A stretch of 64,000 nucleotides of DNA from positions 62,001 to 126,000 of the forward strand of contig FOLJ01000004.1 in assembly GCA_900112325.1 (NCBI GenBank), given 5' to 3'. This DNA comes from Micromonospora sediminimaris (lineage in GTDB: Bacteria; Actinomycetota; Actinomycetes; Mycobacteriales; Micromonosporaceae). This document shows positions 10,799-63,136 of the stretch, in pieces; position 1 is the stretch's first letter; each line of letters starts with the position of its first letter. The notes under the pieces were generated by a model, which was not told where the DNA came from, made no database searches, and saw only the letters and a list, made by a program, of their open reading frames with translations. The position numbers and the translations under genes are program-made.

Positions 10799-10843
10799 GC
10801 CCCGGGAGGATCGTCGGTGGCGTCCTCCGTTTCGATCGCGAGG

Positions 10844-11742: not shown

Positions 11743-11874
11743 TCAAGCTCCTGGGATGTCTTTCGGCACATCCGCTGGCAACGATCGACGATTCGCAGTG
11801 CATCGGCAGTGTAGGCGATCCGGTGTGGATCTGTCTCTCCGCATCGACTGTGTCACGCCGGGTGTGCGGGGTTG

Positions 11875-11911
11875 CCGGCGGTGCGGCGGTCGGGCGGGAA
11901 GTCACCGCCGG
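11875..11911 (-). terminator. Candidate terminator of the nitrite reductase operon
   Basis: Arms CCGGCGGT (11875-11882) and ACCGCCGG (11904-11911), a perfect 8-bp match with a 21-base loop, lie 20 bases past the stop of the last gene of the minus-strand operon. Confidence 0.45.
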
Positions 11912-11931
11912 ATGCCAGCATGATCGTCGGT

Positions 11932-12693: not shown

Positions 12694-12701
12694 GGGCCTG
12701 G

Positions 12702-14069: not shown

Positions 14070-15307
14070 GGTTGTCTCCGGGAGGCGAGCAAAACGTGCA
14101 CAGCGGGCACGAGGAACTGCAGCAGGGCGGCGAGCAGGAGCAGCGAGGTGGTGATCCGTACGTAGGGGGGTACCGCCAGGACGAAGACGGCCAGGGCGGC
14201 GTTGGTCGTGGCGACGCGCTGCGGCCAGTGACGGTCGAGCCGTTCGGTGCGCTCGCGTACCAGGGCCGGTCCGCCACCGAGCGCCACGGGCAGCAGGTAC
14301 GCCAGGGCACCGAGGATTACCTGGCCGACGAAGCCGATGAGGAACGGCACGAGCACGGCGGAAAAGCGGTCCGCCGCCACGGCCGGGTCGGACGCGGACA
14401 GCAGTGTCCAGGCGTCGACGCCGAGCGCGACGACCAGCCAACCGGCGGCGGCCGTGATGGACCAACTCGGGAATGAGGCCGGGGTCTTGCGCCGGGCGGC
14501 CTGTGCGGCCGGCACCGCGGTGAGCAGGACGGCCGTGGCGGTCAGCGCCAGCCCACCGACGGCCAGCAGCGGCCACCAGGCCAACACGCCGGTGCTGACA
14601 GCCGTGAGTCCGGCGACCGCGACCGGCAACCCTCGCCGGGCCGCGGTGGCGGCACCGTCGGCCATGCGGGTACGCAGCACTGTCGGCCACAGGGTGAGCA
14701 GGGTGCCCAGCACGGTCAACGTTACCCAGCCCAGCAGGTTGACGTGCGCGTGGAACAACAGCAGTCGCGACCGGCTGACGTCGTCGACGACGAGCATCCA
14801 GGCGCCGACCGGGATCCCGACCAGCAGGGCGCCGGTGGCGGCCAGGTAGTGGTGCACCGTGACGGCGAAGCGGGCGGGCAGCGCCGCGCGCAGCCGCGCG
14901 ACCAGCCACACCAGGTGTGCCGCGACCGCGGCGAACACCATGCCGGCGCCGACGACGCCGATCCACGGCTGGTCGACGACACCGCTGGCGAGCACCCCGG
15001 CCACGCCGAGGTTGAGCACGGTGAGCCGGATGCCGTCGCCGTGGCGGCTGGCCGGTGGTGGGCAGCGCAGCACGGCGCTGGTGAAGTGGGCGCTCCAGAT
15101 CACGATGGCGTTGGTGGCGACACCGAGCAGCAGCAGGTGCATGCCGAGCCACCGCCAGGCCGGCAGGACCGGGTGGGTGAGCGCGACGGCGACGAGTGCG
15201 ACCAGGTACGCCAGGGGCAGCATGCCGACGCGGCGGTGCCAGGTCGCGCGGCCGGTGGGGCCGCTGCCGCTGGGCGGAGCCTGATCGCCGGCCACGATGG
15301 TGCTCAC
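14066..15307 (-). CDS. Polytopic membrane protein of the nitrite reductase operon (HAHxNLLGW type)
   Basis: 413 residues with about ten to twelve membrane helices. Conserved His-containing helices are visible: IWSAHFTSAVLRC, TVHHYLAATGALLVG and LFHAHVNLLGWVTLTVLGT. As I recall, this membrane domain is fused N-terminally to copper nitrite reductase in some actinobacteria; here the two are separate genes overlapping by 4 bases. The His residues suggest heme or copper binding and a role in delivering electrons or metal to NirK (inference). GTG start overlaps the upstream stop as GTGA. Confidence 0.78.
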   Translation of the reverse strand: MSTIVAGDQAPPSGSGPTGRATWHRRVGMLPLAYLVALVAVALTHPVLPAWRWLGMHLLLLGVATNAIVIWSAHFTSAVLRCPPPASRHGDGIRLTVLNLGVAGVLASGVVDQPWIGVVGAGMVFAAVAAHLVWLVARLRAALPARFAVTVHHYLAATGALLVGIPVGAWMLVVDDVSRSRLLLFHAHVNLLGWVTLTVLGTLLTLWPTVLRTRMADGAATAARRGLPVAVAGLTAVSTGVLAWWPLLAVGGLALTATAVLLTAVPAAQAARRKTPASFPSWSITAAAGWLVVALGVDAWTLLSASDPAVAADRFSAVLVPFLIGFVGQVILGALAYLLPVALGGGPALVRERTERLDRHWPQRVATTNAALAVFVLAVPPYVRITTSLLLLAALLQFLVPAVHVLLASRRQP

Positions 15308-46848: not shown

Positions 46849-49800
46849 ATGCAGGAGGGCCGGTGGACGACGATCACCCCGTCGCAGTTCACGCACGAGC
46901 GGGAGGCACTGGCCTACGTCCAGACGCTGCTCCCCGACACCGAGCCCTACCGCGCCTGGTCGAACTTCACCTTCACCGCACAGACCGGGCATCCGTACGA
47001 GGTCGATCTGCTCGTCGCCGCCCCCGGCGGCCTCTATCTCGTCGAGATCAAGAGCTGGTCCGGGCGGCTGACCTCCAGCGGTTCGAACTGGCTGCTGCAC
47101 GGCCCCAACGGCACCCGCACCTTCGACAACCCGTTGCATCTGGCCGATGCGAAGGCCAAGAAGCTCAAGTCGCTGCTCCAGGTCGCCGCAAGCCGCCGCC
47201 GGGGCCAGCCGGTGCGGATTCCGTTCGTCCAGGCGGCGGTCTTCCTGTCCAAGCCGGGGCTGACGATTGAGCTGTCGGAGCATCACCTGCACGGCGTCTA
47301 CGGCCCCGAGCCCGTTGCGGGCCGTGACGGCAAGCTGGATCCGATCACTTCGCTGCTGTTGCGGCAGCCGGACGACGAGCGGCGAAGGGTCACCCGGGAG
47401 GTGTCGGCGGCTCTGCCGGATCTGCTCGCGGATGTCGGCATCGCGCGTAGCCGGAGGCACTACCAGGTCGGCGCGTGGGAGCTGGAGACCCGGCCCTTCG
47501 ACGTCGGGCCGACCTGGCAGGATCACCGGGCCCGGCACCGTGACCTGGAGCGGGAGCACCGCCGGGTACGGATCTACCTGGTCGAACGCAACGCCGCCCA
47601 GGCCACGCGGGCCAGCATCGAACGGGCCGCCCGGCGCGAGATGTCGGTGCTGCACGGCATCAGCCACCCCGGCATCGTCCAGGCCGACTCGATGGAGCAG
47701 CACGAGGCCGGGCCGGCGCTGATCTTCCGCCATGACCCACGGACGATCCGTCTCGACCATTACATGTCGCAGTACGGCGAACGCCTCGACGTGCTCACCC
47801 GACTCGCCATGATCCGCCAGCTCGCCGAGACAGTGGCGTACGCGCACCGCCGTAAGCTGCACCATCGCGCCCTGTCCGCCCGCAGCGTGTTGGCCGCTCC
47901 CGGACCACGGCGGCGCGGCGGCAGCGAGGACGAGGCGTGGCTGACGCCCCGACTGCTGGTGAGTGACTGGCAGGCGGCCACCCGCGGCACCGACACCAGC
48001 GGCAGCGGCAGCGGCGAGCCGATCACCCCCTCCTCACACGCCACAGACCACATCGAGCGTTCGGCGGAGGCGTATCTCGCACCCGAGCTGAGCGCGCCGA
48101 ACCCGGACGCGGTCGCGATGGACGTCTTCGGCCTCGGCGCGTTGGCGTACCTGATCCTCACCGGGCAACCTCCGGCGGCCAAGCGCCCCGAGCTGCTCAC
48201 CCGGCTCGCCCGCGACAACGGGCTGCGTGCGGCATCGATCGCCGACGCGATCAGCACCTTCGCCGACGAGATGATCCAGGCGGCGACGGCCCCGGTGCCC
48301 ATCCAGCGACTCACCACGGTCGCCGAGTTCGTCGAGATGCTCCAGGAGGTCGAGGACGAGCTGACCGCCCCGCCACCCACCTCGACCCACCCGCCCGAAT
48401 CGGCACCGGAGCAGGTCGATCCGCTGGAGGCGCGCGGTGGTGACCTGGTCGGCGAGTGGAAGATCGTCCGTAGCCTCGGCACCGGCTCGACCTGCCGGGC
48501 GTTCCTGGCCTTCAACGAGCGCACCCGCCGCAACGAGGTGCTCAAGGTGGCCCTCTCCGACGAGAAGGCAGCCCGCCTGGCCCACGAGGCCCGGGTGCTC
48601 GGCCCGCTCACCGACTCCCGGGTGATCCGCCTGGCCCGGCCGGAGCCACTGCAACTCGGCACCCGCACCGTCGTGGTGCTGGAGCACGCCGGCGACCACA
48701 CCCTGGCCCGGAAGCTGCGTGACGACGGCCGGCTCACCATCGACGAGCTGGAAACCTACAGCGACTACCTGTTCGGCGCCCTGGACTACCTGGAGGGCGA
48801 GGGCGTCTACCACCGCGACATCAAGCCGGACAACATCGCCATCCGCATCCGCCCAAACCGCACCCGCCAACTGGTGCTCTTCGACTTCTCCCTGGCCGGC
48901 GTCTCGGTCAAGGAACTCGCCGCCGGCACCCCGCGCTACCTCGACCCCTTCCTCGGCACCGCCGCCCGGCAGGTCTACGACAAGCACGCAGAGTGGTACG
49001 CCCTGGGTGTCACGCTGCACGAGATGGCCTCTGGCGAACTGCCGCTGTGGGGTGACGGCGGCACCGAGCCGCAGCTCACCGAGGGACCGCCGGTGCTGGC
49101 CGCGGAGGCGTTCGACGCGGCGATCCGCGACGGCCTGGTGGAGTTCTTCCAGCGGGCCCTGCACCGCGACCATCGTCGCCGGTTCACTTCGCTCAAGGAG
49201 ATGCGTGACGCCTGGCAGCAGGTGTTCCGCCGCTCCGACGCGAGTGCCCCGGTCGGTAGCGAGCATCCGGAGATCGAGGCCGAGGAGCCCGACGAGAAGG
49301 CCGCCGAGAAGGCTCGCGACGAGGCCGCCGCCAAGGCCACCCGCGCCACCTCGCTGGAGGCCGCCGGGCTCACCCCACGGGCGGTGTCCGCCGCGCACCG
49401 GGTGGAGGCCACCACCGTCGGTGAGCTGCTCGCCGTCGGTAACAACACCTTCGCCACGCTGCCCGGTCTTGGCGCCCGGACACGCAGGGAGTTGCAGCGC
49501 CGGGTGAAGCAGTGGCGCACTCGACTGGGGGAGCGGGAAACCATCCCCACCTCAGCCGCCGCCCGCAAGGCTGCCACCGCCGAGGTCGCCACCGAGACGA
49601 CAAACGCCGGCGGCGACACCGATCTGGTACGCGTCGGTCTCGACGCCATCGCCGCGCTGCTCGTGCCGGCCAAGAACGGCCGCAACGCCGCCGAGGTCGA
49701 AGCCACCCGGCTGCTGTTGAATCTGCCCGACGCCACCGGCACGCTGCCCGGACTGCCGCTGTGGCCGCAGCAGCCACAGGTCGCCGCCGCTGTCGGCGTC

Positions 49801-51291
49801 ACGTCCGGCCGGATCGCCCAGATCCTCGGCAAGCAGCGCAAGCGCTGGCAGGGCATGCCGGTGGTGGGCAGCGTGCGTACCCAGATCATCGAGCTGCTGC
49901 GCGACGGTGGACGGGTGATGGGGGTCGCCGAGTTGGCCGAGGCCCTGCTCATCAGCCGCGGGTCGGTGCGTACCGGAGACGACCTGCGGCTCACGGTGGC
50001 GGTCGCCGCCGTACGGGCGGCCGTCGAGGTCGACGCCATCGAGGAGGAGCCGCGCCTGCTGCTGCGGCGGCACGCTCGCGGCGACATCGACGGCAAACCG
50101 AATCCGCGTGGCGACCGGCTGCTCGTGGCGCTTGAAGCGGGCGAGGACGACGGTCCGGACGCCCCAGCCGCGCCAGCGCTGCTCGACTACGCCGACGCGC
50201 TCGGCAAGGCCGCCGACGAACTCGCGGCCAGCGAGGTGCTGCCCAGCGCGGCGACGGTGCTGCGTACCCTCGCGGCCGTAACCCCGCCCGGCGGTGCTGC
50301 CGACGCTGTCGACGACCGGCGACGCGTGGTGCTCGCCGCCGTGGCCTCGGACCAGGCCGCCGCGACCGCCCGGCTGGAGCTGTATCCGCGCAACCTCGAC
50401 CCGGTCCGCGCGCTGCGGCTCGCCCAGGCCGGCGTGGTGCCGCCGGTGACCACGCCCGAGGGGCGGCGCGGCCTCACCCCGGAGCACGTCATCCAGCGGG
50501 TGGCCGCCCGTTTCCCCGAGCTGACGGCCCCGCTGCCGTCCCACCCGAAGCTCGACAAGCTGCTGGCCGAGGCCGGTTTCGAGCTGCGCTGGGATCGCGA
50601 CCGGTACCTTCCCCCACCACCGCGCGCCGGCTCGTCCTCAATGTCGATCGTCCAGCGTCGCCCGTCGGCCACGAACGCGCCGAGCCGGTGGGAGGCCGAT
50701 TCACCGGAACTTGCTGCGGCGGTGCGGGCCGAGGAACGGCTGACCGGTGCCAGGTCCGCCGGGGGTTTCCGCGCGCTTACCGTACGCCTCAACCGCTACA
50801 CCCTGGCCCGCGAGGAACTGACCCGACGCTTCGACGCCCGGCCGGTCAACGTGGCGGCGGTGTTCCTGCGTGAGCTACGCGGTCTGGTCGACGCCCGCCC
50901 GAAGCCCACCTGGGAGACGGTGCTGGGCGCGGACATCGCCGAACCGGGCTCCCGGGCAGCCATCAAGCTCGGCGAGTACGTCGAGCAGGCTTGGCAGCTG
51001 GCGATGCCCTCGTTGCGGGCGCACCTGCGCGTCGACGCCGGGCCGGTGCTGCTGCACGACGCGGCGGTGCTGGCGCGGTACCGGGCGATGGGGCGACTCC
51101 ATGAGCTGGCCGAAGCCGCACGCAGCGGGGAGGGCGATGTCTGGTTGCTCTGCCCGATGGACGACCCCGGGGTGCTGCCCAAGCTGGACGGTGCGGTGGT
51201 CCCCGTTGCCGACAGCGAGTGGATTCCTCTGCCAGACGCATGGACCACAAATGCCCACCGCGGTAGGCACATCGGCGCCGCGACCCCATAA
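46849..51291 (+). CDS. pglW: BREX-2 (Pgl) serine/threonine kinase PglW
   Basis: 1480 residues. Order: NERD nuclease-like domain (about 15-130, Asp53 and Glu66-x-Lys68 in VDLLV...VEIKSW); a kinase-like domain (about 215-480) whose catalytic loop reads HHRALSARS and DFG reads SDWQ, so probably inactive; a second, intact kinase (about 535-820) with Lys566, HRDIKPDN at 655-662 and DFS at 679; a helix-hairpin-helix segment like the RNA polymerase alpha C-terminus (about 840-895); then a long helical tail. In the phage growth limitation system PglW is an essential kinase. The next Pgl gene, pglX, is displaced 7 kb downstream. Confidence 0.9.
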   Translation: MQEGRWTTITPSQFTHEREALAYVQTLLPDTEPYRAWSNFTFTAQTGHPYEVDLLVAAPGGLYLVEIKSWSGRLTSSGSNWLLHGPNGTRTFDNPLHLADAKAKKLKSLLQVAASRRRGQPVRIPFVQAAVFLSKPGLTIELSEHHLHGVYGPEPVAGRDGKLDPITSLLLRQPDDERRRVTREVSAALPDLLADVGIARSRRHYQVGAWELETRPFDVGPTWQDHRARHRDLEREHRRVRIYLVERNAAQATRASIERAARREMSVLHGISHPGIVQADSMEQHEAGPALIFRHDPRTIRLDHYMSQYGERLDVLTRLAMIRQLAETVAYAHRRKLHHRALSARSVLAAPGPRRRGGSEDEAWLTPRLLVSDWQAATRGTDTSGSGSGEPITPSSHATDHIERSAEAYLAPELSAPNPDAVAMDVFGLGALAYLILTGQPPAAKRPELLTRLARDNGLRAASIADAISTFADEMIQAATAPVPIQRLTTVAEFVEMLQEVEDELTAPPPTSTHPPESAPEQVDPLEARGGDLVGEWKIVRSLGTGSTCRAFLAFNERTRRNEVLKVALSDEKAARLAHEARVLGPLTDSRVIRLARPEPLQLGTRTVVVLEHAGDHTLARKLRDDGRLTIDELETYSDYLFGALDYLEGEGVYHRDIKPDNIAIRIRPNRTRQLVLFDFSLAGVSVKELAAGTPRYLDPFLGTAARQVYDKHAEWYALGVTLHEMASGELPLWGDGGTEPQLTEGPPVLAAEAFDAAIRDGLVEFFQRALHRDHRRRFTSLKEMRDAWQQVFRRSDASAPVGSEHPEIEAEEPDEKAAEKARDEAAAKATRATSLEAAGLTPRAVSAAHRVEATTVGELLAVGNNTFATLPGLGARTRRELQRRVKQWRTRLGERETIPTSAAARKAATAEVATETTNAGGDTDLVRVGLDAIAALLVPAKNGRNAAEVEATRLLLNLPDATGTLPGLPLWPQQPQVAAAVGVTSGRIAQILGKQRKRWQGMPVVGSVRTQIIELLRDGGRVMGVAELAEALLISRGSVRTGDDLRLTVAVAAVRAAVEVDAIEEEPRLLLRRHARGDIDGKPNPRGDRLLVALEAGEDDGPDAPAAPALLDYADALGKAADELAASEVLPSAATVLRTLAAVTPPGGAADAVDDRRRVVLAAVASDQAAATARLELYPRNLDPVRALRLAQAGVVPPVTTPEGRRGLTPEHVIQRVAARFPELTAPLPSHPKLDKLLAEAGFELRWDRDRYLPPPPRAGSSSMSIVQRRPSATNAPSRWEADSPELAAAVRAEERLTGARSAGGFRALTVRLNRYTLAREELTRRFDARPVNVAAVFLRELRGLVDARPKPTWETVLGADIAEPGSRAAIKLGEYVEQAWQLAMPSLRAHLRVDAGPVLLHDAAVLARYRAMGRLHELAEAARSGEGDVWLLCPMDDPGVLPKLDGAVVPVADSEWIPLPDAWTTNAHRGRHIGAATP

Positions 51292-51460
51292 CTGCAGAAC
51301 TCGGCTCGACTCCTGTCAGATATGGGACTCATTCCGTGGCGTGGATCCTGTGTGATACTACGTCGCGCAAGACGATCAGCCTTCACGTAGCAACCTTCTG
51401 ACGGCAGTGAATCTGCGCCGGCCCAGGCGTGTCCTTCTACCGAGCCGAAGTTGTGATCAT

Positions 51461-52756
51461 ATGAATTGGCGGGACCAGATCCTGGACCCGGACTCGTTGG
51501 ATCTCGACGCCTTCGTCAGGGCCACGTACAGTTTCGCCGTTCCCGCCGGTGCCGATGTCCGTCAGGCCGCAGTCCAGATGCTCCGAATACTCACCCAACG
51601 CTCGCAGCGGCTCGGGCTCCGGTATTCCTCTTATGATCCACAGTTCACCGGAGCGGTCATTCACGTGGGGCCGGTTTCCACCTGGACAGACGTGACCCTG
51701 GCGCTGCCGCTCGTGCACGCCGCCCCGAGCGAGGGGTTGTCTCACCTGTTCCAGTTGTTGACAAGTGCGGCCGAGTACAGCTACGCCGACGGGGTGTGGC
51801 TCCAGCGGGTGGATCTTCCCAGGCCCTTCCTCACCGCACTTCCGGGGCCACAACTGGGTATCGATGGCATTCGTTCGATGCTCGGTGTGCGACGGCGTCC
51901 GCTGCTGGCGTTGGAGACCGGGTGCCGGATCGAGACGCTCGACCAGTCCGTGCTCGACCAGTACCGAAAGGTGCTCGTCGCCGGGGCGGACCTCCTGGTC
52001 GACGACATGCTGCTGGGTGATCCTCCGTCGCCTACGCTGGCCCTCCAGTACAGGCTGCCACACCTGGTCGCGGTCTGTCGCCGCGCGGCAGAGGAGAGTG
52101 GCCGGCAGAAGGCGTACATAACCTGTCTCGCAGGGACGCCGAGCCAGATCATGCGTAAGGCCGAGTGGGCGGCGACGAATGGCGCCAAAGGGTTCGTCGT
52201 AAACGGGTTCAGCCAAGGGCTGGGCACGCTGGAGGATCTCAGCTCACACCGATTCGGGGCGTGCCTGATCGCCACCAACATGGGCTCTGGCATGGTGTCG
52301 CGCCCGTCGACCGGCGGAGTACACCGGGTCGGTGTGGATGAGCAGGTCATTTCCAAGCTCAGCCGGTTGGCTGGGGCGGACGCGGTGCACACCGGCACCA
52401 CCGGTGCCGAGTGCTTCGACATCAACTGGAGCGATGCGGTCAGAGCCCTCGCCCAGCCACTACAACTGCCCGGCAAACGGATCCCGGGGGCGTTCCGGGT
52501 GGCCGAAGGCGATCTACAGATGATCAATATCTGGCCGAACATCCGAGAGCTGGGTCACGACACCATCTTCGAGATCCATTCCGCGATCCTCGGTGACTCC
52601 GACGTCCGGTCCCGTACCCGCCGGTTCCTGGAGCTGATGGAGGGGTTGGCGGACGCCACCGACAACGCGTCCGCACTGACTGTGTACCGCGCGCTGGCGG
52701 GCCGGGACGTGAAACTCCGAGCCGAACTCGACAAGGTCGATCTGGAGCACTGGTGA
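51461..52756 (+). CDS. Divergent RuBisCO-like protein lacking the catalytic lysines
   Basis: 431 residues. The RuBisCO large-subunit layout is clear: N-terminal VRATYSFAVPAG, then LPRPFLTALPGPQLGIDGIRSMLGV.RRPLLAL, the barrel strand AGADLLVDDMLLGDPPSP, TPSQIMRKAEWAATNGAKGFVVNGF and LSRLAGADAVHTGTTG. Aligned by spacing (spinach numbering), Lys175 is Gly154, Lys201 (carbamylated) is Val180, Glu204 is Met183 and Lys334 is Glu317; only the Asp203 equivalent (Asp182) remains. Carboxylase or enolase chemistry of the known kinds is therefore unlikely. The ATG at 51461 is chosen; a GTG at 51407 would add 18 basic residues. The stop overlaps the next start (GTGA). Confidence 0.8.
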   Translation: MNWRDQILDPDSLDLDAFVRATYSFAVPAGADVRQAAVQMLRILTQRSQRLGLRYSSYDPQFTGAVIHVGPVSTWTDVTLALPLVHAAPSEGLSHLFQLLTSAAEYSYADGVWLQRVDLPRPFLTALPGPQLGIDGIRSMLGVRRRPLLALETGCRIETLDQSVLDQYRKVLVAGADLLVDDMLLGDPPSPTLALQYRLPHLVAVCRRAAEESGRQKAYITCLAGTPSQIMRKAEWAATNGAKGFVVNGFSQGLGTLEDLSSHRFGACLIATNMGSGMVSRPSTGGVHRVGVDEQVISKLSRLAGADAVHTGTTGAECFDINWSDAVRALAQPLQLPGKRIPGAFRVAEGDLQMINIWPNIRELGHDTIFEIHSAILGDSDVRSRTRRFLELMEGLADATDNASALTVYRALAGRDVKLRAELDKVDLEHW

Positions 52757-53175
52757 CGATCTCGAATCTGCTGACGAGCCTGCTCGATCAGGATCCCGGC
52801 CTCGCCGAGCCGATCAAGGATGGCACTGCGCTCGCAGCCAGCCTCGCGGCCGTCTCGGTGGCGATCTTCATCGTGCTGCCCACGTTCCACGGCATCATCC
52901 GGATGCGGGGTGCGCCTGGATTTTCCGAGTACGCCGCTGCCCGACGGGTGCTGCGTGGGCTGCACGCTCTGGCGTTCGCCAGCGCACTCTTCTCGGCCGC
53001 TGTCGTGGTCGGGATCGTGGGTCGACACTTCCCCTGCCGGCTGGTGCTCTACGCCCAGGAAGGCTTGACGGTCGTCGCCACCCTGCTCTTCTTCGTGGCG
53101 ATCTACGTGGTGTGGCGCTCCTCGGTGCACACCTTCGCCGAAGAGTATGCCGGGCGCGGCCGGAGCGACCGATGA
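52753..53175 (+). CDS. Small membrane protein of the RuBisCO-like operon
   Basis: 140 residues with three predicted helices (LAASLAAVSVAIFIVLPTFHGII, LHALAFASALFSAAVVVGIVG, LTVVATLLFFVAIYVVW) and a short basic tail. Family not recognised. GTG start overlaps the RuBisCO-like stop by 4 bases, and its own stop overlaps the next start, so the three products are made in step. Confidence 0.78.
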   Translation: MTISNLLTSLLDQDPGLAEPIKDGTALAASLAAVSVAIFIVLPTFHGIIRMRGAPGFSEYAAARRVLRGLHALAFASALFSAAVVVGIVGRHFPCRLVLYAQEGLTVVATLLFFVAIYVVWRSSVHTFAEEYAGRGRSDR

Positions 53176-54410
53176 CCGAGCCGCAGGGGCGGTACGCAGC
53201 CGGAATGCACCGCAGTATCCCGGCGTTGGAGGCGCTCCTGGCGGCCCGACGTGGGGTGCTACGGGTGCGTTACTCCCATCAGCCCAACGCGCTCGCCAGC
53301 CTCGCGGTCCTTTCCGCGTGTGCCGCGGCGGCGCTGACCGGCCTCCGCCGCCAAGATCCGGTGAAGTGCCTGGTGACCTGGATGTCCGTCGACTACGACG
53401 GGGCGGACGACGAACAACTGCTGCGGGTACGGTTGCCCCGCTGCCGCCCCGGCCTCAGCACCCGGATGTCGCCAGTGCTGAACCGGCGTCGGATGGGCAA
53501 ACGGCTTGCGGCGAGCATTCCGGCCGGGGCGATGAGGTTCCGCTTGGCCGAGGTGGAGCAGGAGGCCGTCCATAGCGCGCTCGCGCTGCGGCACCATCTG
53601 GCCAGGCAAGGTTGGGCGGTGACCGGCCGGCGCACGTGTCGCAGCAGGGTCGCCGAGGGGTTCGCGGCGTTGCGGCATCTACTCGGTAGCCGGGCTCGGC
53701 TGCCCGACGCCCTTGCCGAACACAACGCGTGGATGATTCGGCAGATCTTCGGGGTTGACGTGTCGGTGGCGAGTGGCGTTGAGACGCTGCTCAACCAGGC
53801 GCAGGCACGCCAGCGGATGCTGAGCTTCATCGCACTGGCCCGCCCCGACCTCGTGCGGGAAGGCATCTGGCGGGTCTGTTCGAGATGCCACGTCCGCACC
53901 CGCGTGCGGTGCCGCTTCGAGGCGTCGGGTGCGGAGATCGACGCCGCCGAGTGCGCCGGATGCGGGCAGGCGACGGCGGGAGCCGCGCTCGACCTGTCAG
54001 CGGTCGTCGATTCGAGCGCCGGCCCGTGCCCCGAATTCATCGTCCCGGTGCGACTGGACGATCTGCTGGAACGACTTGTGGAGCCCGACTTCGGGCTGGC
54101 TGCCCATTATCCAGGCTCCGTACCGCATCTGACGGGTTCGCGGTCGATTCTGGTGGCGCTGCTGAAAAGTGAGCTGCGTGGTTATCCGGAGCCACCGCCG
54201 GACTGGTGTCCGACGCACTTGGATCTGGCCGCCCTCACCGATATGCTCCTGCCGGGCCCGATTCCGGAGCGCTCCGCGAACAGCGCCGGCATGACGGCTT
54301 CTCAGGTGCTTTACCGGTCATCGGCACTGGTGGCCTGGAGTGTGCTCGCTGGTTTTACCAGGCCAGCCGGGGTTGATCATTCGACGCAAAGAGCAGGGAG
54401 TGTCAGGTGA
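53172..54410 (+). CDS. Unrecognised zinc-ribbon protein of the RuBisCO-like operon
   Basis: 412 residues, no family recognised. A treble of features: VLRVRYSHQPN (His36-Asn39) after a predicted strand near the N-terminus, reminiscent of HIGH-like nucleotide-binding turns or of BshC-type enzymes; a CxxC...CxxC zinc ribbon (Cys236, Cys239, Cys261, Cys264); and PHLTGSRSILVALLKSEL in the C-terminal third. Basic middle region (RRRMGKRLAAS). An ATP-dependent ligase-like enzyme is one guess, held weakly. ATG and stop both overlap neighbours by 4 bases. Confidence 0.75.
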   Translation: MTEPQGRYAAGMHRSIPALEALLAARRGVLRVRYSHQPNALASLAVLSACAAAALTGLRRQDPVKCLVTWMSVDYDGADDEQLLRVRLPRCRPGLSTRMSPVLNRRRMGKRLAASIPAGAMRFRLAEVEQEAVHSALALRHHLARQGWAVTGRRTCRSRVAEGFAALRHLLGSRARLPDALAEHNAWMIRQIFGVDVSVASGVETLLNQAQARQRMLSFIALARPDLVREGIWRVCSRCHVRTRVRCRFEASGAEIDAAECAGCGQATAGAALDLSAVVDSSAGPCPEFIVPVRLDDLLERLVEPDFGLAAHYPGSVPHLTGSRSILVALLKSELRGYPEPPPDWCPTHLDLAALTDMLLPGPIPERSANSAGMTASQVLYRSSALVAWSVLAGFTRPAGVDHSTQRAGSVR

Positions 54411-54919
54411 CCGATGACGGGCTGGTCCAGCGGGCTGTGAAACTGTTGCGGAGCAACCGATACTTCACCCTCGCGACCTGCGCGGACGGCGTGCCATGGG
54501 CAGCTCCGATCAACTACGTCCTCGGGCCGGGACCGGTCTTGCATTTCTATTCCACGCCGACCGCTCGGCACTCGCGTCACATCGCGGCGATGCCGACCGT
54601 CGCCGGTGCGGTGTTCGACTCCACGGCGGTCGGCGACGACGTGGACGGCATGCAGTTCGTGGCCCGGTGCGCCGAGGTGACCGCGTCAGAGTTGGCGGAC
54701 GTGTCCGAGCACTATTTCAGGACGAACTTCACCGATCCCGAGGAACGGGACTGGTGGTATCGCCCGCCGGAGGCGTTCCATGGCGACGGCACGTGGCGCT
54801 TCTATCGCCTCGACCTGACCGAGGTCTACCTGATCGATCTCGAAGCCTTTGTGGAAACCCAGGTCGACACCCGGGTTCAGGTCGACCTCGACCGTCTGCG
54901 GCGGTCGCTGGGAGCCTGA
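54407..54919 (+). CDS. Pyridoxamine 5'-phosphate oxidase-family flavoprotein
   Basis: 170 residues with an FMN-binding split barrel: RYFTLATCADGVPWAAPINYVLGPGPVLHFYSTPTARHSRHIA is the classic start. The family binds FMN, F420 or heme and includes reductases and oxidases; the specific reaction is unknown. GTG at 54407 overlaps the upstream stop and has GGGAG about 8 bases before it. Fourth gene of the coupled set. Confidence 0.88.
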   Translation: MTDDGLVQRAVKLLRSNRYFTLATCADGVPWAAPINYVLGPGPVLHFYSTPTARHSRHIAAMPTVAGAVFDSTAVGDDVDGMQFVARCAEVTASELADVSEHYFRTNFTDPEERDWWYRPPEAFHGDGTWRFYRLDLTEVYLIDLEAFVETQVDTRVQVDLDRLRRSLGA

Positions 54920-54945
54920 GCCGCCCTGATCGAGTGGAGGTGCGG

Positions 54946-55431
54946 ATGTACGGCATCGATCTCTCGGATCGGCGTCGATCCTCGTCCGTCGCAGCAGTGC
55001 AGTGCCGGACCCAACCCTGGGTGGAGGATCCGGCGACGGGCGGCAGTTTCATGCTGCTGCACGTCGACCGGCTGTCGGGGCTCTGGGTGGTGCGTAGCCG
55101 ATTCGCTGCGGGGACGGTGGTGCCGCAACATCTGCACAGCGGGTCGGTCAGCGCGGTGACCCTTGCCGGCCAGTGGGGCTATCCGGAACTCGACGTCCGG
55201 TGCGGGGTCGGCGACTATCTGGTGGAGGAAGCGGGGACGGTGCATTCCCTGGCCGTGCACGGGACAGAACCAGCGGACGTCATCTTCTCCATCCTCGGCT
55301 CCATCACGTACTTCCATCCGGACGGCACCGTCGATCGGATCGAGGATTGGCGCAGCGTGCTGGACGACTACGAAGCGGGTTGCGCCGAGCAACGACGGCG
55401 CCCGAAGGTCATCGGCTCCAGCCTTGACTGA
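54946..55431 (+). CDS. Cupin of the dihydroxyacetophenone dioxygenase type
   Basis: 161 residues, single cupin: FMLLHVDRLSGLWVVRSRFAAGTVVPQHLHSGSVSAVTLAG and GDYLVEEAGTVHSLAVHG. Metal ligands His-x-His (QHLHSG), Glu and His (TVHSL) are present. Relatives cleave C-C bonds of small ketones with O2 at a mononuclear iron. Starts 27 bases after the PPOX gene behind GGAGG (54936-54940), so likely the fifth gene of the operon. Confidence 0.83.
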   Translation: MYGIDLSDRRRSSSVAAVQCRTQPWVEDPATGGSFMLLHVDRLSGLWVVRSRFAAGTVVPQHLHSGSVSAVTLAGQWGYPELDVRCGVGDYLVEEAGTVHSLAVHGTEPADVIFSILGSITYFHPDGTVDRIEDWRSVLDDYEAGCAEQRRRPKVIGSSLD

Positions 55432-55461
55432 TCTCCTGACGCGGGTCGCCGTGCACCCGAC

Positions 55462-56031
55462 CTAGGTTGTCGGTTGCGCGGCGGCGAATCGCTGCCCGGT
55501 GATCTGTAGGAGAGGGTTCCGGCGATTGACGTCCAGGACGAGGTCCTGGGAAAAGCAGGTGCTGTCCGCCCATGCCGATCTCACCCGCGTCACCAGCACG
55601 TCGTGGTCACCCAGGTCGTCAAGCACCTTCAGGACATCGCAGAGCAGCACGGCGATGCAGTTGGCGACGCCAGCTGGATAGTCGGGCTCGGTCAACAACG
55701 GAGTGAGCCCGGCTGCGGAGAACTTGTCCGATTGCGGTGGCAGCGGGCGGCCGGTGTAGCGGTGACCGGCCACCATCACCGCCGGCACCTGGTCACTGGT
55801 GGCGAGGCTGATGCTCAGCCGCCGGTGCCGAAGGATGTTGTCGCGGGTTTCCCATTCCGGCCACAGCGCCACCGTCACCAGAGTCGGACTTGAGCTGATC
55901 GCGGTGACATTTGTCGCGGCACAGAGATGGGGCGTGCCGTCGCAACGCGTCGAACCGATGAAGTAGACCGGTCGGGGCCCGAGCAACCGGTGGCAGGAAT
56001 CCAGCAGTGCGGGGTGAAGTCGGCGCAACAT
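55462..56031 (-). CDS. Flavin reductase-like protein
   Basis: 189 residues of the flavin reductase split barrel: PRPVYFIGSTRCDGTPHLCAATNVTAISSSPTLVTVALWPEWETRDNILRHRRLSISLATSDQVPA in pieces. Family members supply reduced flavin to partner oxygenases or act as flavin-dependent reductases. Opposite strand to the RuBisCO-like operon and convergent with the cupin gene (30-base gap); divergent from the GNAT gene. Confidence 0.87.
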   Translation of the reverse strand: MLRRLHPALLDSCHRLLGPRPVYFIGSTRCDGTPHLCAATNVTAISSSPTLVTVALWPEWETRDNILRHRRLSISLATSDQVPAVMVAGHRYTGRPLPPQSDKFSAAGLTPLLTEPDYPAGVANCIAVLLCDVLKVLDDLGDHDVLVTRVRSAWADSTCFSQDLVLDVNRRNPLLQITGQRFAAAQPTT

Positions 56032-56128
56032 CTCCGCAGACTACGTACCGGTGCACGGCGGTCCGGTATGCGACTCAGGATCGCGCCACCGGGCATAGAA
56101 TAATGACGCCCATCACAGTCGAGTTGGG

Positions 56129-57127
56129 GTGACCGGCATGGACGTGCTGGATGCGATCGTCGAGCAGCACCGGCGTCGGTCCAGGCTGGACGAGCGGTTA
56201 CCAAGCCTCGACCGGGCGAAGGTGGCCGCCCTGCTGGCGTCGGCCGCAACGCCGACGACGTCGGCCGTCCGCGCCATTTGTGACGCGGACGGGGTGATCG
56301 CGCTGGCGTGGCCGGCGGTCGAGCACTACGACCCGGACAGCGACAAACTCGCCTACTACGAGCGTGACACCGGCACCACTTTCGGATTGACCATCCGGCA
56401 GACCGGTGGCCCGTGCCTTGCCGCGCTCAACGCCCTGCTGACGCAGATCGAGCAGGACTGGCGGGCGGCCGGGGCGACCGGGGCCAATCTGGTCTGGCCA
56501 TGTCGCGAGATGAGCATTGACCAGCCTCTTGCGGCGCACGGCTTCGCCAAGGACGCCTGCATCGCCGTCAAGCCGATGGCGGAGCCGCGCCCGGCGGCCA
56601 CCGGCCGCAGGCGATCGCTGAGCGCCCGGCTCGCGGTGCCCGACGATGAGCCGATGCTGCTCCGCCTCCAAGAGGCTGTTCTCGCAGCGCACATACCGGA
56701 CAGCCCGTTCGCTCGACGGGTCCCGGCGGTCCGCGCCCGCTTTCATGATCGGCTGGCAGAGATGTGGGCCGGCCGGACACCGGCCGATGGGGCACCGCTC
56801 GTGGTGGTGGCGGAGGACCAGGGGCAGATCGTCGGCATGTCGGAGTGTTTCGTCAGACGGCACGACATCGCACTGGACATGCTGCTGCCGGATGGCTTAT
56901 ACGGCTACGTGAACACCTTCGGTGTGCTGCCGGAGCGGCGGGGCGGCGGGGCGGGCCGCTTCCTCGCCGACGCCGTCGAACGTGCACTGTCCCACTTTGA
57001 CGTACGCGGCATCTACCTCTACTACAGCTACTACAACACAGCAGCGATGGCGTTCTGGTCGAAGGTGGGCTATTCGCCGCTGTGGCGTACCTACCAGTGT
57101 CGTCGACTGATCCCTTCCGCGAGATGA
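56129..57127 (+). CDS. Tandem GNAT acetyltransferase
   Basis: About 330 residues. The N-terminal half (1-155) is a degraded GNAT-like domain; the C-terminal half (about 165-325) is a normal one, with VVVAEDQGQIVGMSECFVRR, YVNTFGVLPERRGGGAGRFLADAVERAL (acetyl-CoA loop) and YSYYNTAAMAFWSKVGYSPLW. Architecture resembles mycothiol synthase-like double GNATs, though it is not MshD by any signature I can see. GTG at 56129 or ATG at 56138. Probably part of the RuBisCO-like island by position only. Confidence 0.82.
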   Translation: MTGMDVLDAIVEQHRRRSRLDERLPSLDRAKVAALLASAATPTTSAVRAICDADGVIALAWPAVEHYDPDSDKLAYYERDTGTTFGLTIRQTGGPCLAALNALLTQIEQDWRAAGATGANLVWPCREMSIDQPLAAHGFAKDACIAVKPMAEPRPAATGRRRSLSARLAVPDDEPMLLRLQEAVLAAHIPDSPFARRVPAVRARFHDRLAEMWAGRTPADGAPLVVVAEDQGQIVGMSECFVRRHDIALDMLLPDGLYGYVNTFGVLPERRGGGAGRFLADAVERALSHFDVRGIYLYYSYYNTAAMAFWSKVGYSPLWRTYQCRRLIPSAR

Positions 57128-57140
57128 GGCACGACGCCAC

Positions 57141-57455
57141 TCAGTGACAACCCGGTGCGGCGAGGCCGCGGCTGCGGACGCCGGTCACAGCCCTGGTCCT
57201 GTCCTGGGCGGCCGGTCCAGGCGGGGGCAGGTTGACCGGCGGCCGAAGGCCGGCGAGTCGGACGTAGAGCTCGCGTTTGGCGGTGGCGTTGCCGCGCCGG
57301 TCGATGACGTACCCGGTCAACCAGATCCAGCCGTCGTAGGCGTGCCGGTCGCTGACCGAGACGACCCGCAGGGTCAGTGCCCGACCTCCCGCGAACTGCA
57401 CCGAGGCGCGACCGTCGATCCGGAGCAGGTCGCCGGGGGTCGGGCGGGCGGTCAC
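57141..57455 (-). CDS. Conserved hypothetical small protein
   Basis: 104 residues of beta-rich sequence (GDLLRIDGRASVQFAGGRALTLRVVSVSDRHAYDGWIWLTGYVID in pieces), common in Micromonosporaceae beside DivIVA-like and GntR-like genes; function unknown. GTG start overlaps the DivIVA-domain gene stop (GTGA). Confidence 0.72.
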   Translation of the reverse strand: MTARPTPGDLLRIDGRASVQFAGGRALTLRVVSVSDRHAYDGWIWLTGYVIDRRGNATAKRELYVRLAGLRPPVNLPPPGPAAQDRTRAVTGVRSRGLAAPGCH

Positions 57456-57730
57456 CAGCGGCCCTGGTTCGGTGGTCGGCAGTGCCGGGCGTGCATGGAC
57501 TGCCAGTCGCGCAGGGCCCGCTTGAGCCTCTCGTTCTCCTGGGCGACCGTACGGAACTGCCGGTGCAGGTCGGCCAGCTCGTCGGCGACCGTGGCCTGGA
57601 ACTCGCGTACCTGATCAGCGTCGACCCCACGGCGGCGCGGGGCGAACGTGCGGGTGCGTACCTCGTGCGGGGTCAACCGGATCGGGTGACCGGTCCCGTA
57701 GGGCTGGCCACCTCGATACACCTGGGCCAC
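57452..57730 (-). CDS. Small DivIVA-domain protein
   Basis: 92 residues. PIRLTPHEVRTRTFAPRRRGVDADQVREFQATVADELADLHRQF is the DivIVA N-terminal membrane-binding and coiled-coil start; a short coiled coil follows (ENERLKRALRDWQ). Lacks the long C-terminus of cell-pole DivIVA/Wag31. GTG at 57730 has AAAGGA 6-7 bases upstream. Confidence 0.83.
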   Translation of the reverse strand: MAQVYRGGQPYGTGHPIRLTPHEVRTRTFAPRRRGVDADQVREFQATVADELADLHRQFRTVAQENERLKRALRDWQSMHARHCRPPNQGRW

Positions 57731-58044: not shown

Positions 58045-58284
58045 ATGCCCGAATCAGCCGAGTACCTCCGCATTGCCGCAGACGTGATCGCCGACGTCAG
58101 GTCCGGCAAGCTCAAACCGGGCGATCGGCTGCCGTCGCTCGCGCAGACCCGTGCCGACTACGGCGTCAGCTACGGCACCGTGCAGATGGCCTACGTCCGA
58201 CTCGAAGCCCTGCGGGTGATCCGGCGGCAGCAGGGCAAGGGTGTCTTCGTGACCGATCCGAAGACCTGGATGCGGGAGCCGTAG
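58045..58284 (+). CDS. Stand-alone GntR-type DNA-binding domain
   Basis: 79 residues comprising only the GntR winged helix: YLRIAADVIADVRSGKLKPGDRLPSLAQTRADYGVSYGTVQMAYVRLEALRVI. No effector domain, as in many small actinobacterial regulators of mobile or Pgl-adjacent regions. GAGGAG (58035-58040) sets the ATG. pglX begins 71 bases downstream with its own promoter. Confidence 0.87.
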   Translation: MPESAEYLRIAADVIADVRSGKLKPGDRLPSLAQTRADYGVSYGTVQMAYVRLEALRVIRRQQGKGVFVTDPKTWMREP

Positions 58285-58343
58285 GTAGCGGCTCGGCGAC
58301 GGAAACGGCCCTTACGGGTGCCCCGTCCCGTGAGCGGGACGAC

Positions 58344-58349
58344 TAGAGT
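58344..58349 (+). promoter_or_regulatory. -10 box of pglX, probably leaderless
   Basis: TAGAGT ends 6 bases before the GTG start of pglX; no ribosome site lies between. Spacing is identical to that at pglW. Confidence 0.5.
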
Positions 58350-58355
58350 CGTCGC

Positions 58356-61300
58356 GTGGTCGACCGGAAGCTGCTCTTGTCGGACTTGCAGAAGCAGGTC
58401 AAGAACCTGGAGAAGGACCTGCGGGAGCAGGCCGAGACGGTCGAGGAGGTGCGCTCCCGGCTGCGTGGCGAATACGACCACGCGTTCAAGGTCGGGCGTA
58501 CCGCCGCCACCTGGACAGCCTGGCGCGACGAGCGAGTCACGCAGGTCGCGGTCGCCTGGGTGCTCGGCACCGTCTTCGTCCGCTTCTGCGAGGACAACGG
58601 CCTGCTGCCCGACCCCTACCTCGCCGGGCCGGGGGACCGCCTGGTGCTGGCCGAGGAAGCCGAGGCCCAGTTCTTCCGCGACCGGCCGGAGGAAACCCTG
58701 CGCGGCTGGATGGAACAGGGCTTCGACGCCATCGCCAGCACCCAGGCCGGCAAGTCGCTCTTCGACAAGCGGCACAACCCGCTCTACCAGATCCCGCTCT
58801 CCCACGACGAGGCGAAGAACCTGATCGCCTTCTGGCGTCGACGCGGCGAAGCAGGCACCCTGCTGCACGACTTCACCGACCCGGAGTGGGACACCCGCTT
58901 CCTCGGCGACCTCTACCAGGACCTCTCCGAAGCCGCCCGCAAGACGTACGCCCTGCTCCAGACGCCGGAGTTCGTCGAGGAGTTCATCCTCGACCTGACG
59001 CTCACCCCGGCGATCGAAGAGTTCGGCCACGACGTGGTCAAGATGATCGATCCCACCTGCGGCTCCGGCCACTTCGTCCTCGGCGCGTTCCACCGGCTGC
59101 TGAAGGAGTGGGAGCAACACGCCCCCAACCGAGACCCCCACGAGCGGGTACGCCTCGCCCTCGACGCCGTCCACGGCGTAGACATCAACCCCTTCGCCGT
59201 AGCCATCGCCCGCTTCCGCCTCCTGGCAGCCGCCCTCCGCGCCAGCAACCTTAAAACCCTTGCTGACTCGGCTGGCTACACCTTCCCGATGCACCTCGCC
59301 GTCGGCGACTCGCTGCTCAAGCGCCGCCAGGACACACTGCCCGGCATCGATGCGGAGGCGGACGCGATGGTGGAGTTCACCTACGCGACCGAGAATTTAC
59401 GCGAACATCCCGGCATACTCAGCCCCGGCACCTACCACGTCGTGGTGGGCAACCCGCCCTACATCACCGTCAAGGACAAGGTTCTCAACGACGCCTACCG
59501 CGAGATGTACCCGGCCTGCTCAGGCAAGTACGCCCTATCAGTGCCCTTCGCGCAGCGCTTCTTCCAGCTGGCCAAGCCCGGCGACGGCGATGGCAAGGGT
59601 GCCGGGCACGTCGGCCAAATCACCGCCAACTCGTTTATGAAGCGCGAGTTCGGCAAAAAGATGATCTCGAAACTGTTCGCGGTCGAGGTCAACCTGACCC
59701 ACGTCATCGATACCTCGGGTGCCTACATCCCCGGCCACGGCACCCCGACTGTCATACTGATCGGCCGAAACGCCAACCGTGGCCGCGCTGGCACGATCCG
59801 CACGGTGATGGGTATTCGTGGTGAGCCAAGCACGCCTGTTGATCCGAGCCGAGGTGTGGTGTGGCAGGCCATCGTGTCACAGATTAACCGGCCTGGTTTG
59901 CAGACCGAGTGGATTAGCACCGCCGATACATCCCGGGCAAACCTTGCTTCTCACCCTTGGAGTCTATCGGGAGGCGGTGCAGACGAGGTCATGAATCTAC
60001 TGGCTGCGGCACCGAGTTCACTCTCGCAAGCAGGTGCTGACATCGGAATGACGACTCTAACTCTGGAGGACGAGGCGTTTCTGGTGCCGAAGGATGCTGT
60101 CCGGCGGCTGGGAGTCGGCGTCGACGTCACGCCATTGATAAATGGCGACGAGGTGCGAGATTACCTCTTGGCGGCGCCTTTCTCAACCGTGATGCCATAT
60201 GAGATTGACGGGTCTCAGCGAGGACTTCTTCCTGCAACCCTTCGTTATCTATGGAACATGCGCACGAACCTAGCGCGGCGGCTCTATTTCGGAAAGGTGC
60301 CGAGCGAGCGAGGACTTCGTTGGTATGACCTCGGGATGTACTTCGCCGGGCGACATCGGACGCCGTTGTCGATTACGTTTGCGTTTGTGGCGACGCACAA
60401 CCATTTTGTGCTGGATCGGGGCGGGAAGGTTTTCAAGCAGTCGGCACCGGTGATCAAATTGGGAGAGGGGGCGTCGGAGGACGAACACCTGCGGCTGCTC
60501 GGGGTGCTCAACAGTTCGACCGCCTGCTTCTGGCTCAAGCAGGTCAGCCACAACAAGGGCAGCACCGTCGATTCCCGAGGAGCTAGGCAGACGACGATCC
60601 CCTGGGAGGACTTCTACGAGTTCACAGGTACCAAGTTGCAGGAGTTTCCGCTGCCTTCGGCGTACCCGTTGGAACTTGCTCGGGAGATTGATGGGCTGGC
60701 GCAGCGGCTTGCCACGGTGAGTCCGGCGGCGGTGGCGGGGTCTGGGGTGCCGACGCGGGAGCGGCTGGATGCCGCCGCCTACGAGTGGCACGCCACCCGG
60801 GGGCAGATGATCTGCTTGCAGGAGGAGTTGGACTGGCAGGTCTACTCGCTCTACGGGCTGCTGGACGAGGACCTGACCGCGCCGGAGAGCGTCCGGCCGC
60901 CGATGCTGTCGCTGGGGCAGCGGGCGTTCGAGATCGTCCTCGCGCGGAAGATGCGTGACGAGGGGCTGGAGACGCAGTGGTTCGCGCGGCACGGCTCAAC
61001 ACCGATCAATGAGCTGCCGGCGGGCTGGTCGGACGAGTACAAGGCGATCGTGCAGCGGCGGATCGAGCTGATCGAGGGCAACCGCAACATCGGGCTGATC
61101 GAGCGGCCGGAATGCAAACGGCGGTGGGCCACCGAGGGCTGGGACAAGATGCAGGCCAAGGCGCTGCGGGACTGGCTGCTGGACCGGTGCGAGACGCGGG
61201 AGCTGTGGTATCACCACGTCGACGGCCTGGAGCAGCCGCGTCCGCTGACAACCGCCCAGCTCGCCGACGAGCTGCGTCGCGACCCCGACGTGCTCGCTGT

Positions 61301-61943
61301 CGCCGAGTTGTACGCGCCCGGTCAGGATCTCGGCAAGGTGATCGCCGACCTGGTCGCCGACGAGCACGTGCCGCACCTGGCGGCGCTGCGCTACAAGGAC
61401 TCCGGCCTGAGCAAGCGCGCCGACTGGGAGCAGGTGTGGGACCTGCAACGGGCCGAGGACGCGCTGCCCGACGAGGCGGCGAAGCGGGAGTTCCGCAAGC
61501 AGATCCCGGTGCCGCCGAAGTACACCTCGGCGGACTTCGCCAAGGCCAGCTACTGGAAGCATCGGGGCAAGCTCGACGTGCCCAAGGAACGTTTCGTGTC
61601 GTACCCGGCGGCCAGCCGCGACGGTGACCCGTCGCTGCTGGTCGGCTGGGCCGGCTGGGACCACCGCGAGCAGGCCCAGGCCCTCGCCACCCTGATCGTC
61701 GCCCGCGAGCAGGAGGACGGCTGGGCCACCGACCGGCTGCTTCCGCTGGTGGCGGGGCTGCGCGAGATCCTCCCCTGGGTACGCCAGTGGCACGGCGAGT
61801 TCGACGCGGAGTGGGGTTCTTCGCCGGCCGACATCTACGCCGGCTTCCTCGCCGAGACGACCAACCGCCTCCACCTCACCGACGAGGCGCTGACGTCGTG
61901 GCGCCCACCCAAGACCACCCGAGGCCGCAAGGCCAAGGTATGA
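58356..61943 (+). CDS. pglX: BREX-2 adenine-specific DNA methyltransferase PglX
   Basis: 1195 residues; methylates adenine in a non-palindromic site to mark DNA in BREX/Pgl. N-terminal coiled coil (about 5-35: [20 protein letters not shown]), then a class I N6-adenine methyltransferase with motif [17 protein letters not shown] (about 229) and motif IV NPPY (about 366). The target-recognition part (about residues 500-780, bases 59880-60700) is clearly less GC-rich than both flanks, as if exchanged. The stop overlaps the next gene (ATGA). Confidence 0.94.
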
Positions 61944-63136
61944 CGAGGGAAAACAACCAGGCCGACTGGTGGAGCACGGCGGACGTCAACGAGCTGACGG
62001 GTCTGCTGGCCGGGCGGATGCGCTCCAGGCTATGGCAGCACACCGAACCCGGTGAGTTGGCCGCATGGGTGTTCGACCCCCCGGAGCCGGCCTCGCTGCT
62101 GTCGGCACCGGCCCTCCTCGATGGTCACTGGCGCGACGGACTAGACGAGCGGCAGCAGTTGTCCTGGGCGCTCGCTGGGTGGGTTCTGCGGACGGCCGTA
62201 CCGGAGGTGCGGGCAACGGCGGGCACTCACTGGCTGCTGTCCCACGTCCGGGAGGCGGGCCTGCGACGGCTGCGCTTGACGGTCGGTCCCGTGGCTTTCC
62301 TGCGGCTCAATGAACACGGTGACGAGGTGCGACTCAGGCTTGCCCTGGCACCCCTGCATGCCGCATTGCAGGCCGGTGCCCTGAGCGATGAGGAGTGGGA
62401 AGATCGGGGCATCGCGCTCCCGGAGGACACCACCAGGACGTACGAAGAGGAAAAGATCCTGGTCCGTTGCCCCGACGTGGAGACCACGCTCTGGCTGCTG
62501 AAGCAGTCGCCCGTCATGGTGGCCGCCCGGATGCTTGCCGCTCGGCTGTCGACCATGGGCTTTCCTTTTCATGAGGACTATCGTCCGGAGGTCGCGGCGC
62601 GGGCGTGGGTAGCCGCCGAGGATCTGCTCACCCGGGAGGTCACTGCGCCCGCTGCGGGCCGAGGCCCACTCGGCTTCGATCGGCCGTACCGCGCATCGGC
62701 TGTAGCTGCCGCTCTGCCCACCCAACGGTCGTTCGACGCGGACGCCTATCGCGCAGGGGTGAGCGAACACGACCGACTGTGCCGGGCGGTGATCGACCAT
62801 TTGGAAAAGGGCGGCACGCAGGTGGGGACCGGGCTGCACGCCGTGCCCGTGGACCTGGCCTGGCGCACCGACAACGGACGACAGGTCATCGCCGAGGTGA
62901 AGAGCGTCCTGGACGGGAACGAGATCGAGCAGCTGCGGCTCGGCCTCGGCCAGATCCTCGAATATCGTCACCGTCTGGCAGCGTTGAATGTCCCGGTCAC
63001 GGCGGTGCTTGTCGTTTCCCGACTTCCTGATCCGATCTGGCGGGGCATCTGCGCCGACAGCCGCGTCACGCTTGTCGCCATGGACTGTCCATCGTGGCCG
63101 GTGGAAATGGCAGCAGTCGCCGCCGCAGCGCAGTAG
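61940..63136 (+). CDS. pglX-coupled protein with PD-(D/E)XK nuclease-like C-terminus
   Basis: 398 residues. The N-terminal 250 residues are helical and unrecognised. The C-terminal part has VPVDLAWRTDNGRQVIAEVK followed by IEQLRLGLGQILEYRHRL: Asp305, Glu319-x-Lys321 and a Gln...Tyr helix, the pattern of PD-(D/E)XK nucleases such as VRR-NUC/NERD relatives. Translation is coupled to pglX (ATGA), which argues for a shared role, perhaps as an effector. Not a standard named BREX-2 component to my knowledge. Confidence 0.78.
   Translation: MTRENNQADWWSTADVNELTGLLAGRMRSRLWQHTEPGELAAWVFDPPEPASLLSAPALLDGHWRDGLDERQQLSWALAGWVLRTAVPEVRATAGTHWLLSHVREAGLRRLRLTVGPVAFLRLNEHGDEVRLRLALAPLHAALQAGALSDEEWEDRGIALPEDTTRTYEEEKILVRCPDVETTLWLLKQSPVMVAARMLAARLSTMGFPFHEDYRPEVAARAWVAAEDLLTREVTAPAAGRGPLGFDRPYRASAVAAALPTQRSFDADAYRAGVSEHDRLCRAVIDHLEKGGTQVGTGLHAVPVDLAWRTDNGRQVIAEVKSVLDGNEIEQLRLGLGQILEYRHRLAALNVPVTAVLVVSRLPDPIWRGICADSRVTLVAMDCPSWPVEMAAVAAAAQ

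Follow-up and report, generated by a model that had tools for sequence, protein, structure and literature searches.

A rare gene set around a RuBisCO-like protein without RuBisCO catalytic residues in the pglW-pglX exchange slot of a BREX-2 locus

Why do genes of metabolic appearance, headed by one for a RuBisCO-like protein (RLP), lie inside a BREX-2 (Pgl) locus, and do they form a unit? The locus is part of a 64,000 nt stretch of DNA (the window) that covers positions 62001-126000 of its contig, in a genome of 6.4 Mb in 33 contigs. The BREX-2 set is complete, with strong PADLOC matches for PglW, PglX, PglY, PglZ, BrxD and BrxHI. A NERD nuclease-kinase is encoded by pglW (46849-51291, + strand; PADLOC PglW 1590 bits), the BREX-2 methyltransferase by pglX (58356-61943, + strand; PADLOC PglX 1763 bits). 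The first-pass annotation had placed seven genes between the two. All seven are real according to gene calls and profile matches, but two small minus-strand genes and a GntR regulator ahead of pglX had been missed.

The RLP (51461-52756, + strand, 431 aa) comes first. It is followed on the same strand by a small membrane protein of 140 aa (52753-53175) with three hydrophobic stretches in the hydropathy profile and a weak match in Mucilaginibacter. The third gene (53172-54410, + strand) codes for an orphan protein of 412 aa, here termed ZnR, which carries a CxxC...CxxC zinc ribbon and an N-terminal HQPN...DYD motif. It matches no family and has a homologue in Mucilaginibacter. Next are a PPOX-class split-barrel flavoprotein of a rare subfamily (54407-54919, + strand; PF01243, 36 bits) and a cupin related to 2,4'-dihydroxyacetophenone dioxygenase (DAD; 54946-55431, + strand; Cupin_7, 49 bits; PDB 3ebr, 3cjx, 5bpx and 4p9g). 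A flavin reductase-like protein (55462-56031, - strand; PF01613, 67.6 bits; PDB 1eje) and a double GNAT acetyltransferase (56129-57127, + strand) complete the group. In the latter PF00583 (46 bits) covers the C-terminal domain, while the N-terminal half is read as a putative GNAT from its length and sequence.

As the first-pass annotation stated, the first four genes overlap by 4 bp at each of the three junctions (RLP/membrane protein/ZnR/PPOX). The cupin starts 26 bp past the end of PPOX. Since the flavin reductase lies on the minus strand, at most five genes can share one operon. With the GNAT following after a gap, RLP, membrane protein, ZnR, PPOX and cupin represent a probable operon and the last two genes neighbours that may or may not belong to the functional unit. 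The GC content of the seven genes (65-68%) is below that of the window (70%) and of pglW (72%). As pglX also has only 66%, this is a weak hint of import.

A match to pglX (E ≤ 1e-100) is present in 44 of 160 genomes of the genus. We compared 16 sister loci with a closely related pglX, as well as more distant ones. As far as the contigs reach, the 16 loci show the same order of pglW, variable cargo, two small minus-strand genes, GntR and pglX. In the window the two small genes are one without family assignment (57141-57455) and a DivIVA-like one (57452-57730; DivIVA, 30 bits), followed by the GntR-family regulator (58045-58284, + strand; PF00392, 57 bits), which is conserved in sister species. 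The small gene pair is kept near pglX in all 16 loci despite changing adjacent cargo. In 14 of 14 loci with both ends readable, DNA similarity (blastn) ends after position 51261, just ahead of the relatives' pglW stop, and restarts at ~57220-57247 in the 3' end of the first small gene. The codons after 51261 are replaced, such that the PglW tail of sister species (e.g. SAVTA-stop) is swapped for other residues. Blastn and the junction sequences thus delimit an exchangeable cargo slot at about 51262-57240, with pglW as its left and the two small genes as its right border.

Between these conserved borders the cargo of the 14 sister loci differs from species to species. Recurring cargo comprises an ADP-ribosylglycohydrolase (7 loci), one uncharacterised family (7), AbiEi-like/DUF559 (4), DUF6998-like (4) and Shedu SduA (3) genes. 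The pglW-pglX interval is an exchange slot, rich in defence-type genes but not confined to them. Conserved borders combined with differing cargo mark the RLP set as one exchangeable cargo of this slot. Separation of pglW and pglX had initially been taken as unusual; in this genus variable cargo routinely separates them, so that there is nothing anomalous about an insertion as such. The slot resembles known defence-gene exchange slots or hotspots in its conserved border genes, sharp similarity breaks and species-specific, in large part defence-like cargo. It differs from them here in that the RLP cargo looks metabolic. The mapped interval offers a definite place to seek cargo exchanged through the BREX-2 loci of the genus, including several cargo families without known function.

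The RLP set lies within a complete BREX-2 locus, but in sister species other cargo takes its place. A BREX-2 component should be steadily associated with pglWXYZ, brxD and brxHI. Of the 160 genomes a single one has the RLP; none of the remaining 159 carries it, although 43 of these match pglX, which speaks against the RLP as a component of BREX-2.

To find the RLP elsewhere, 84,980 species were scanned. Exact 8-residue patterns gave no match, as they were too strict. The three RLP motifs were then widened by pseudo-alignment, whereby the additional rows were artificial variants of the window RLP that served as search patterns only, and every match had to be confirmed in a tblastn comparison with the true RLP of the window. 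Each species is represented by one genome in the collections, and relatives whose motifs diverge would escape the scan. The loosened scan yielded one relative, in Mucilaginibacter psychrotolerans (Bacteroidota; contig NZ_SOZE01000017.1, locus L078). There, ZnR (8131-9462), PPOX (9473-9964), RLP (9974-11326) and the membrane protein (11323-11676) are encoded on the same strand, followed, again on this strand, by an FAD oxidoreductase (11677-13101). The order differs from that in the window, but the genes are contiguous with ends nearly touching or overlapping. Comparison with the window proteins gives 62 bits for ZnR, 119 for PPOX, 181 for RLP and 27.7 for the membrane protein, with best scores of shuffled sequences of 23, 18, 24 and 21 (membrane protein 20.8), respectively. 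Identity is 22% for ZnR and 37% for PPOX. The membrane protein pairing is the weakest of the four and rests partly on position.

Homologues of PglW and PglX are absent from the 21 kb around the Mucilaginibacter module, and the genes adjoining it do not have the appearance of defence genes. The contiguous recurrence at such a site indicates that the core of four genes is real and does not depend on BREX. The accompanying redox gene varies (cupin in the window, FAD oxidoreductase in Mucilaginibacter), and neither cupin nor flavin reductase nor GNAT has been seen with the core elsewhere. Thus the claim of a real functional unit is supported for the first four genes, which recur together across phyla; the recurrent unit comprises these four. 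The first-pass annotation had also suggested looking for joint recurrence of RLP, membrane protein and ZnR, and had considered the defence link lost if the set co-occurred but never near BREX. The three proteins do recur together; in the sole relative, PglW and PglX are both missing from the 21 kb around the set, so by this reasoning the link between module and BREX function is not borne out.

Beside the Mucilaginibacter module, after the FAD oxidoreductase, follows an integrase (13365-14642, - strand; PHROG integrase, 1.9e-20). A stretch at ~7955-8000 resembles, by eye, one half of a tRNA-Met (3' half, - strand); ARAGORN calls no tRNA in the locus and the sequence is single-copy in the genome. 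No direct-repeat att pair was found around the module. We read it as a putative mobile island. The closest RLPs of the window's own phylum lack the module partner genes, and 137 other Bacteroidota gave generic RLP/RuBisCO matches only. Further ZnR relatives were found neither in plasmids, phages and IMG/VR nor in ~300 genomes of the order, ~300 of the family and 141 of the Mucilaginibacter family. Weak ZnR matches in two genomes (G850 and G1042) were rejected as a P450 region and a Cys-rich helical protein.

RuBisCO-fold proteins have few known reactions. Both module RLPs belong to the superfamily according to PF00016 (46.7 bits for the window, 67.6 bits for Mucilaginibacter; cut-off 30.1) and PDB matches down to 4e-18. 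We aligned the two with 43 other RuBisCO/RLP sequences from fetched loci. The position of the carbamylated lysine (K201) is valine in both (V180 in the window RLP), compared to lysine in 42 and valine in one of the 43 others. The E204-equivalent is M183 in the window RLP and leucine in Mucilaginibacter. In the loop-6 (Lys334) column both show glutamate followed by cysteine, where most others have lysine or arginine. The phosphate loop, mostly SGG or GGG in the others, reads EGD (E349-G-D351 in the window). The metal-ligand aspartates D181 and D182 are kept in both, and the motifs TNMGSG, GADAVHTGT and VAEGDL are common to them. A lysine equivalent to K175 (VKP) is present in the Mucilaginibacter RLP and absent from that of the window.

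A RuBisCO carboxylase (forms I-III) was dismissed for both proteins, as the carbamylated Lys201, which with Asp203 and Glu204 provides the Mg ligands, is lost along with E204, and the loop-6 Lys334 and the SGG/GGG phosphate-binding loops are missing too. MtnW and OiaX are the nearest named NCBIfam matches, but the window RLP scores only 80.6 and 64.5 bits with two MtnW models and 55.9 bits with OiaX against equivalog cut-offs of 409, 513.6 and 700, and these identities were rejected as well. With the type IV RLPs (the DK-MTP-1P enolase MtnW, OiaX, and the Chlorobaculum and Rhodopseudomonas RLPs) the module RLPs share the superfamily sequence, with ~280-390 residues alignable, and the DD aspartates, and likewise no carboxylase activity is expected. 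They differ from these in replacing the carbamylated lysine, E204, the loop-6 lysine and SGG, alike in both members. As both have lost the carbamylated lysine and changed SGG to EGD, they are neither RuBisCO nor canonical RLPs. In the tree the RLP sits on a very long branch (4.7) that is not firmly placed. A site that has been rewritten in the same way in both proteins and is otherwise conserved speaks, as far as sequence can tell, for an active enzyme with a new reaction and against decay. Such rewriting of the metal and phosphate sites in members from two phyla is a pointer to new chemistry, which the dedicated partner genes make testable. Another RLP of the same phylum as the window (L038, genome G784) also lacks the carbamylated lysine (VDP motif); the fetched stretch around it holds no module partner genes.

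The partner proteins give fewer clues. ZnR and the membrane protein have no match above cut-off in Pfam, NCBIfam, PHROGs or PADLOC, and AlphaFold models of ZnR, alone and as a pair, reach a mean pLDDT of about 35. By eye the ZnR motif HQPN...[DE]YD lines up with GQQxGL...EDHD of BshC, the bacillithiol cysteine-adding enzyme. This likeness is a lead only: ZnR differs by its zinc ribbon, hhalign gives a probability of ≤3% and HMMER scores fall below those of shuffles, so that ZnR as a BshC-like ligase was rejected. For PPOX, only two plasmid records match. The stronger is pSNEVa of Serratia nevei, where a homologue with 36% identity over 162 residues lies between SAM methyltransferase and NRPS genes. 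This small cluster (L079, NZ_CP149941.1:9076-27546) consists of SAM methyltransferase, PPOX and NRPS genes and is flanked by transposase genes; unlike the window locus, it holds no homologue of RLP, ZnR or the membrane protein within 18 kb. In 246 sampled genomes of the phylum PPOX gave weak matches only, besides the window, and a match in Embleya was discarded as generic and without the module. A DAD-type cupin dioxygenase would have a three-His metal site; in the alignment with 3ebr the cupin keeps HxH plus a downstream His, a candidate for such a site.

In the reading that we favour, and which we consider about evenly poised between right and wrong, the core of RLP, membrane protein, ZnR and PPOX is a biosynthetic module for a small molecule, which has moved horizontally and occupies the BREX-2 cargo slot here. 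The RLP would catalyse a metal-assisted enolisation, retro-aldol reaction or decarboxylation without a carbamate, using D181/D182, and E349-G-D351 would suit a substrate lacking the usual phosphate. PPOX would supply a flavin redox step. ZnR, possibly an activating enzyme similar to class-I synthetases (HUP/BshC-like), would join or activate a building block, and the membrane protein would anchor or export. The changeable redox gene might finish the product, with flavin reductase and GNAT as local genes for tailoring or self-protection. Several observations speak for such a pathway, i.e. four contiguous genes in two phyla with tight overlaps in both loci, RLP active-site changes common to both with D181/D182 and long motifs kept, an enzymatic gene content, a PPOX homologue within an NRPS cluster and a slot that takes in assorted cargo. 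It is weakened by the number of loci, which is two, by the Serratia cluster having PPOX alone in common, by the HUP/BshC likeness of ZnR lacking statistical support and by the many defence genes among the other slot cargoes.

These other occupants of the slot, among them Shedu SduA in three loci, AbiEi-like/DUF559 in four and other conflict-type genes, would fit a new antiphage module inside a complete BREX-2 locus. During infection its enzymes would act on a cellular metabolite, changing or depleting it, or would produce a defensive compound, and the membrane protein would serve as sensor or effector. The sporadic spread over two phyla and the Mucilaginibacter integrase suit defence cargo as well as metabolic cargo. 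However, the core has no nuclease, NTPase, protease or toxin domain, RLP, ZnR and membrane protein gave no match in the PADLOC scan, and the Mucilaginibacter copy stands without PglW/PglX in 21 kb and among neighbours that are not defence-like. We judge an antiphage module to be rather unlikely. The first-pass annotation had left the choice between a metabolite-making pathway and an accessory defence module; the former is now better supported, and a defence role, to which only the location points, is possible.

A catabolic or detoxification pathway, in which a carbon source or toxic compound is broken down by the RLP together with the flavin enzymes and the cupin dioxygenase, would recall the layout of methionine salvage with an RLP enolase followed by a cupin dioxygenase. 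The nearest named relatives MtnW and OiaX do act in salvage or catabolism, and DAD, to which the cupin comes closest, cleaves ring ketones. Yet both RLPs have lost the residues that serve phosphorylated substrates, the cupin is outside the recurrent core, ZnR has no catabolic counterpart, and no catabolic transporter, kinase or dehydrogenase adjoins, which makes this explanation improbable. That the seven genes are unrelated cargo gathered by chance appears most improbable of all. In its favour, cupin, flavin reductase and GNAT have not been seen with the core elsewhere, the flavin reductase runs on the opposite strand and the slot takes up cargo of mixed kinds. But four genes that are contiguous in a second phylum as well, and whose ends touch or overlap in either genome, refute chance accumulation for the core.

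A search of the open literature on RLPs with BREX, biosynthetic gene clusters and natural products returned no such module in the sources available, in agreement with the first-pass annotation, which knew of no described system of this composition. Neither RuBisCO nor cupin appears in the main text of a 2026 survey of BREX neighbourhoods (PMC12839542). Effects of natural products on phage are an established topic according to PMC12360287, hence a chemical defence role for the module is possible. Overall, the four-gene set around an RLP without RuBisCO catalytic residues is rare and previously undescribed, and forms a real travelling unit with the probable role of making or modifying a small molecule. 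More far-reaching, and in our estimation unlikely, is the idea of a carbamate-free RuBisCO-fold enzyme class without the classical phosphate loop at the core of a mobile four-gene pathway, whose undescribed metabolite is used in or traded through antiphage loci.

Further features of the BREX-2 loci lie outside the slot. Between the GntR gene and pglX (58285-58355 in the window) there is a second cargo slot, with extra genes in L048, L049, L051, L054, L057 and L059 and none in the window; XRE-IrrE plus PIN pairs occupy it in L049, L054 and L059. Downstream of pglX lie the genes for PglY, PglZ, BrxD and BrxHI. A gene of 398 aa (61940-63136, + strand), which matches XisH below threshold only, overlaps pglX by 4 bp and is seen in several sister loci. 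Between pglX and pglY of the same genome sits a 729-aa protein (L061:1189-3378) that ends in an EAL domain (PF00563, 80.5 bits) and whose N-terminal half has no family assignment.
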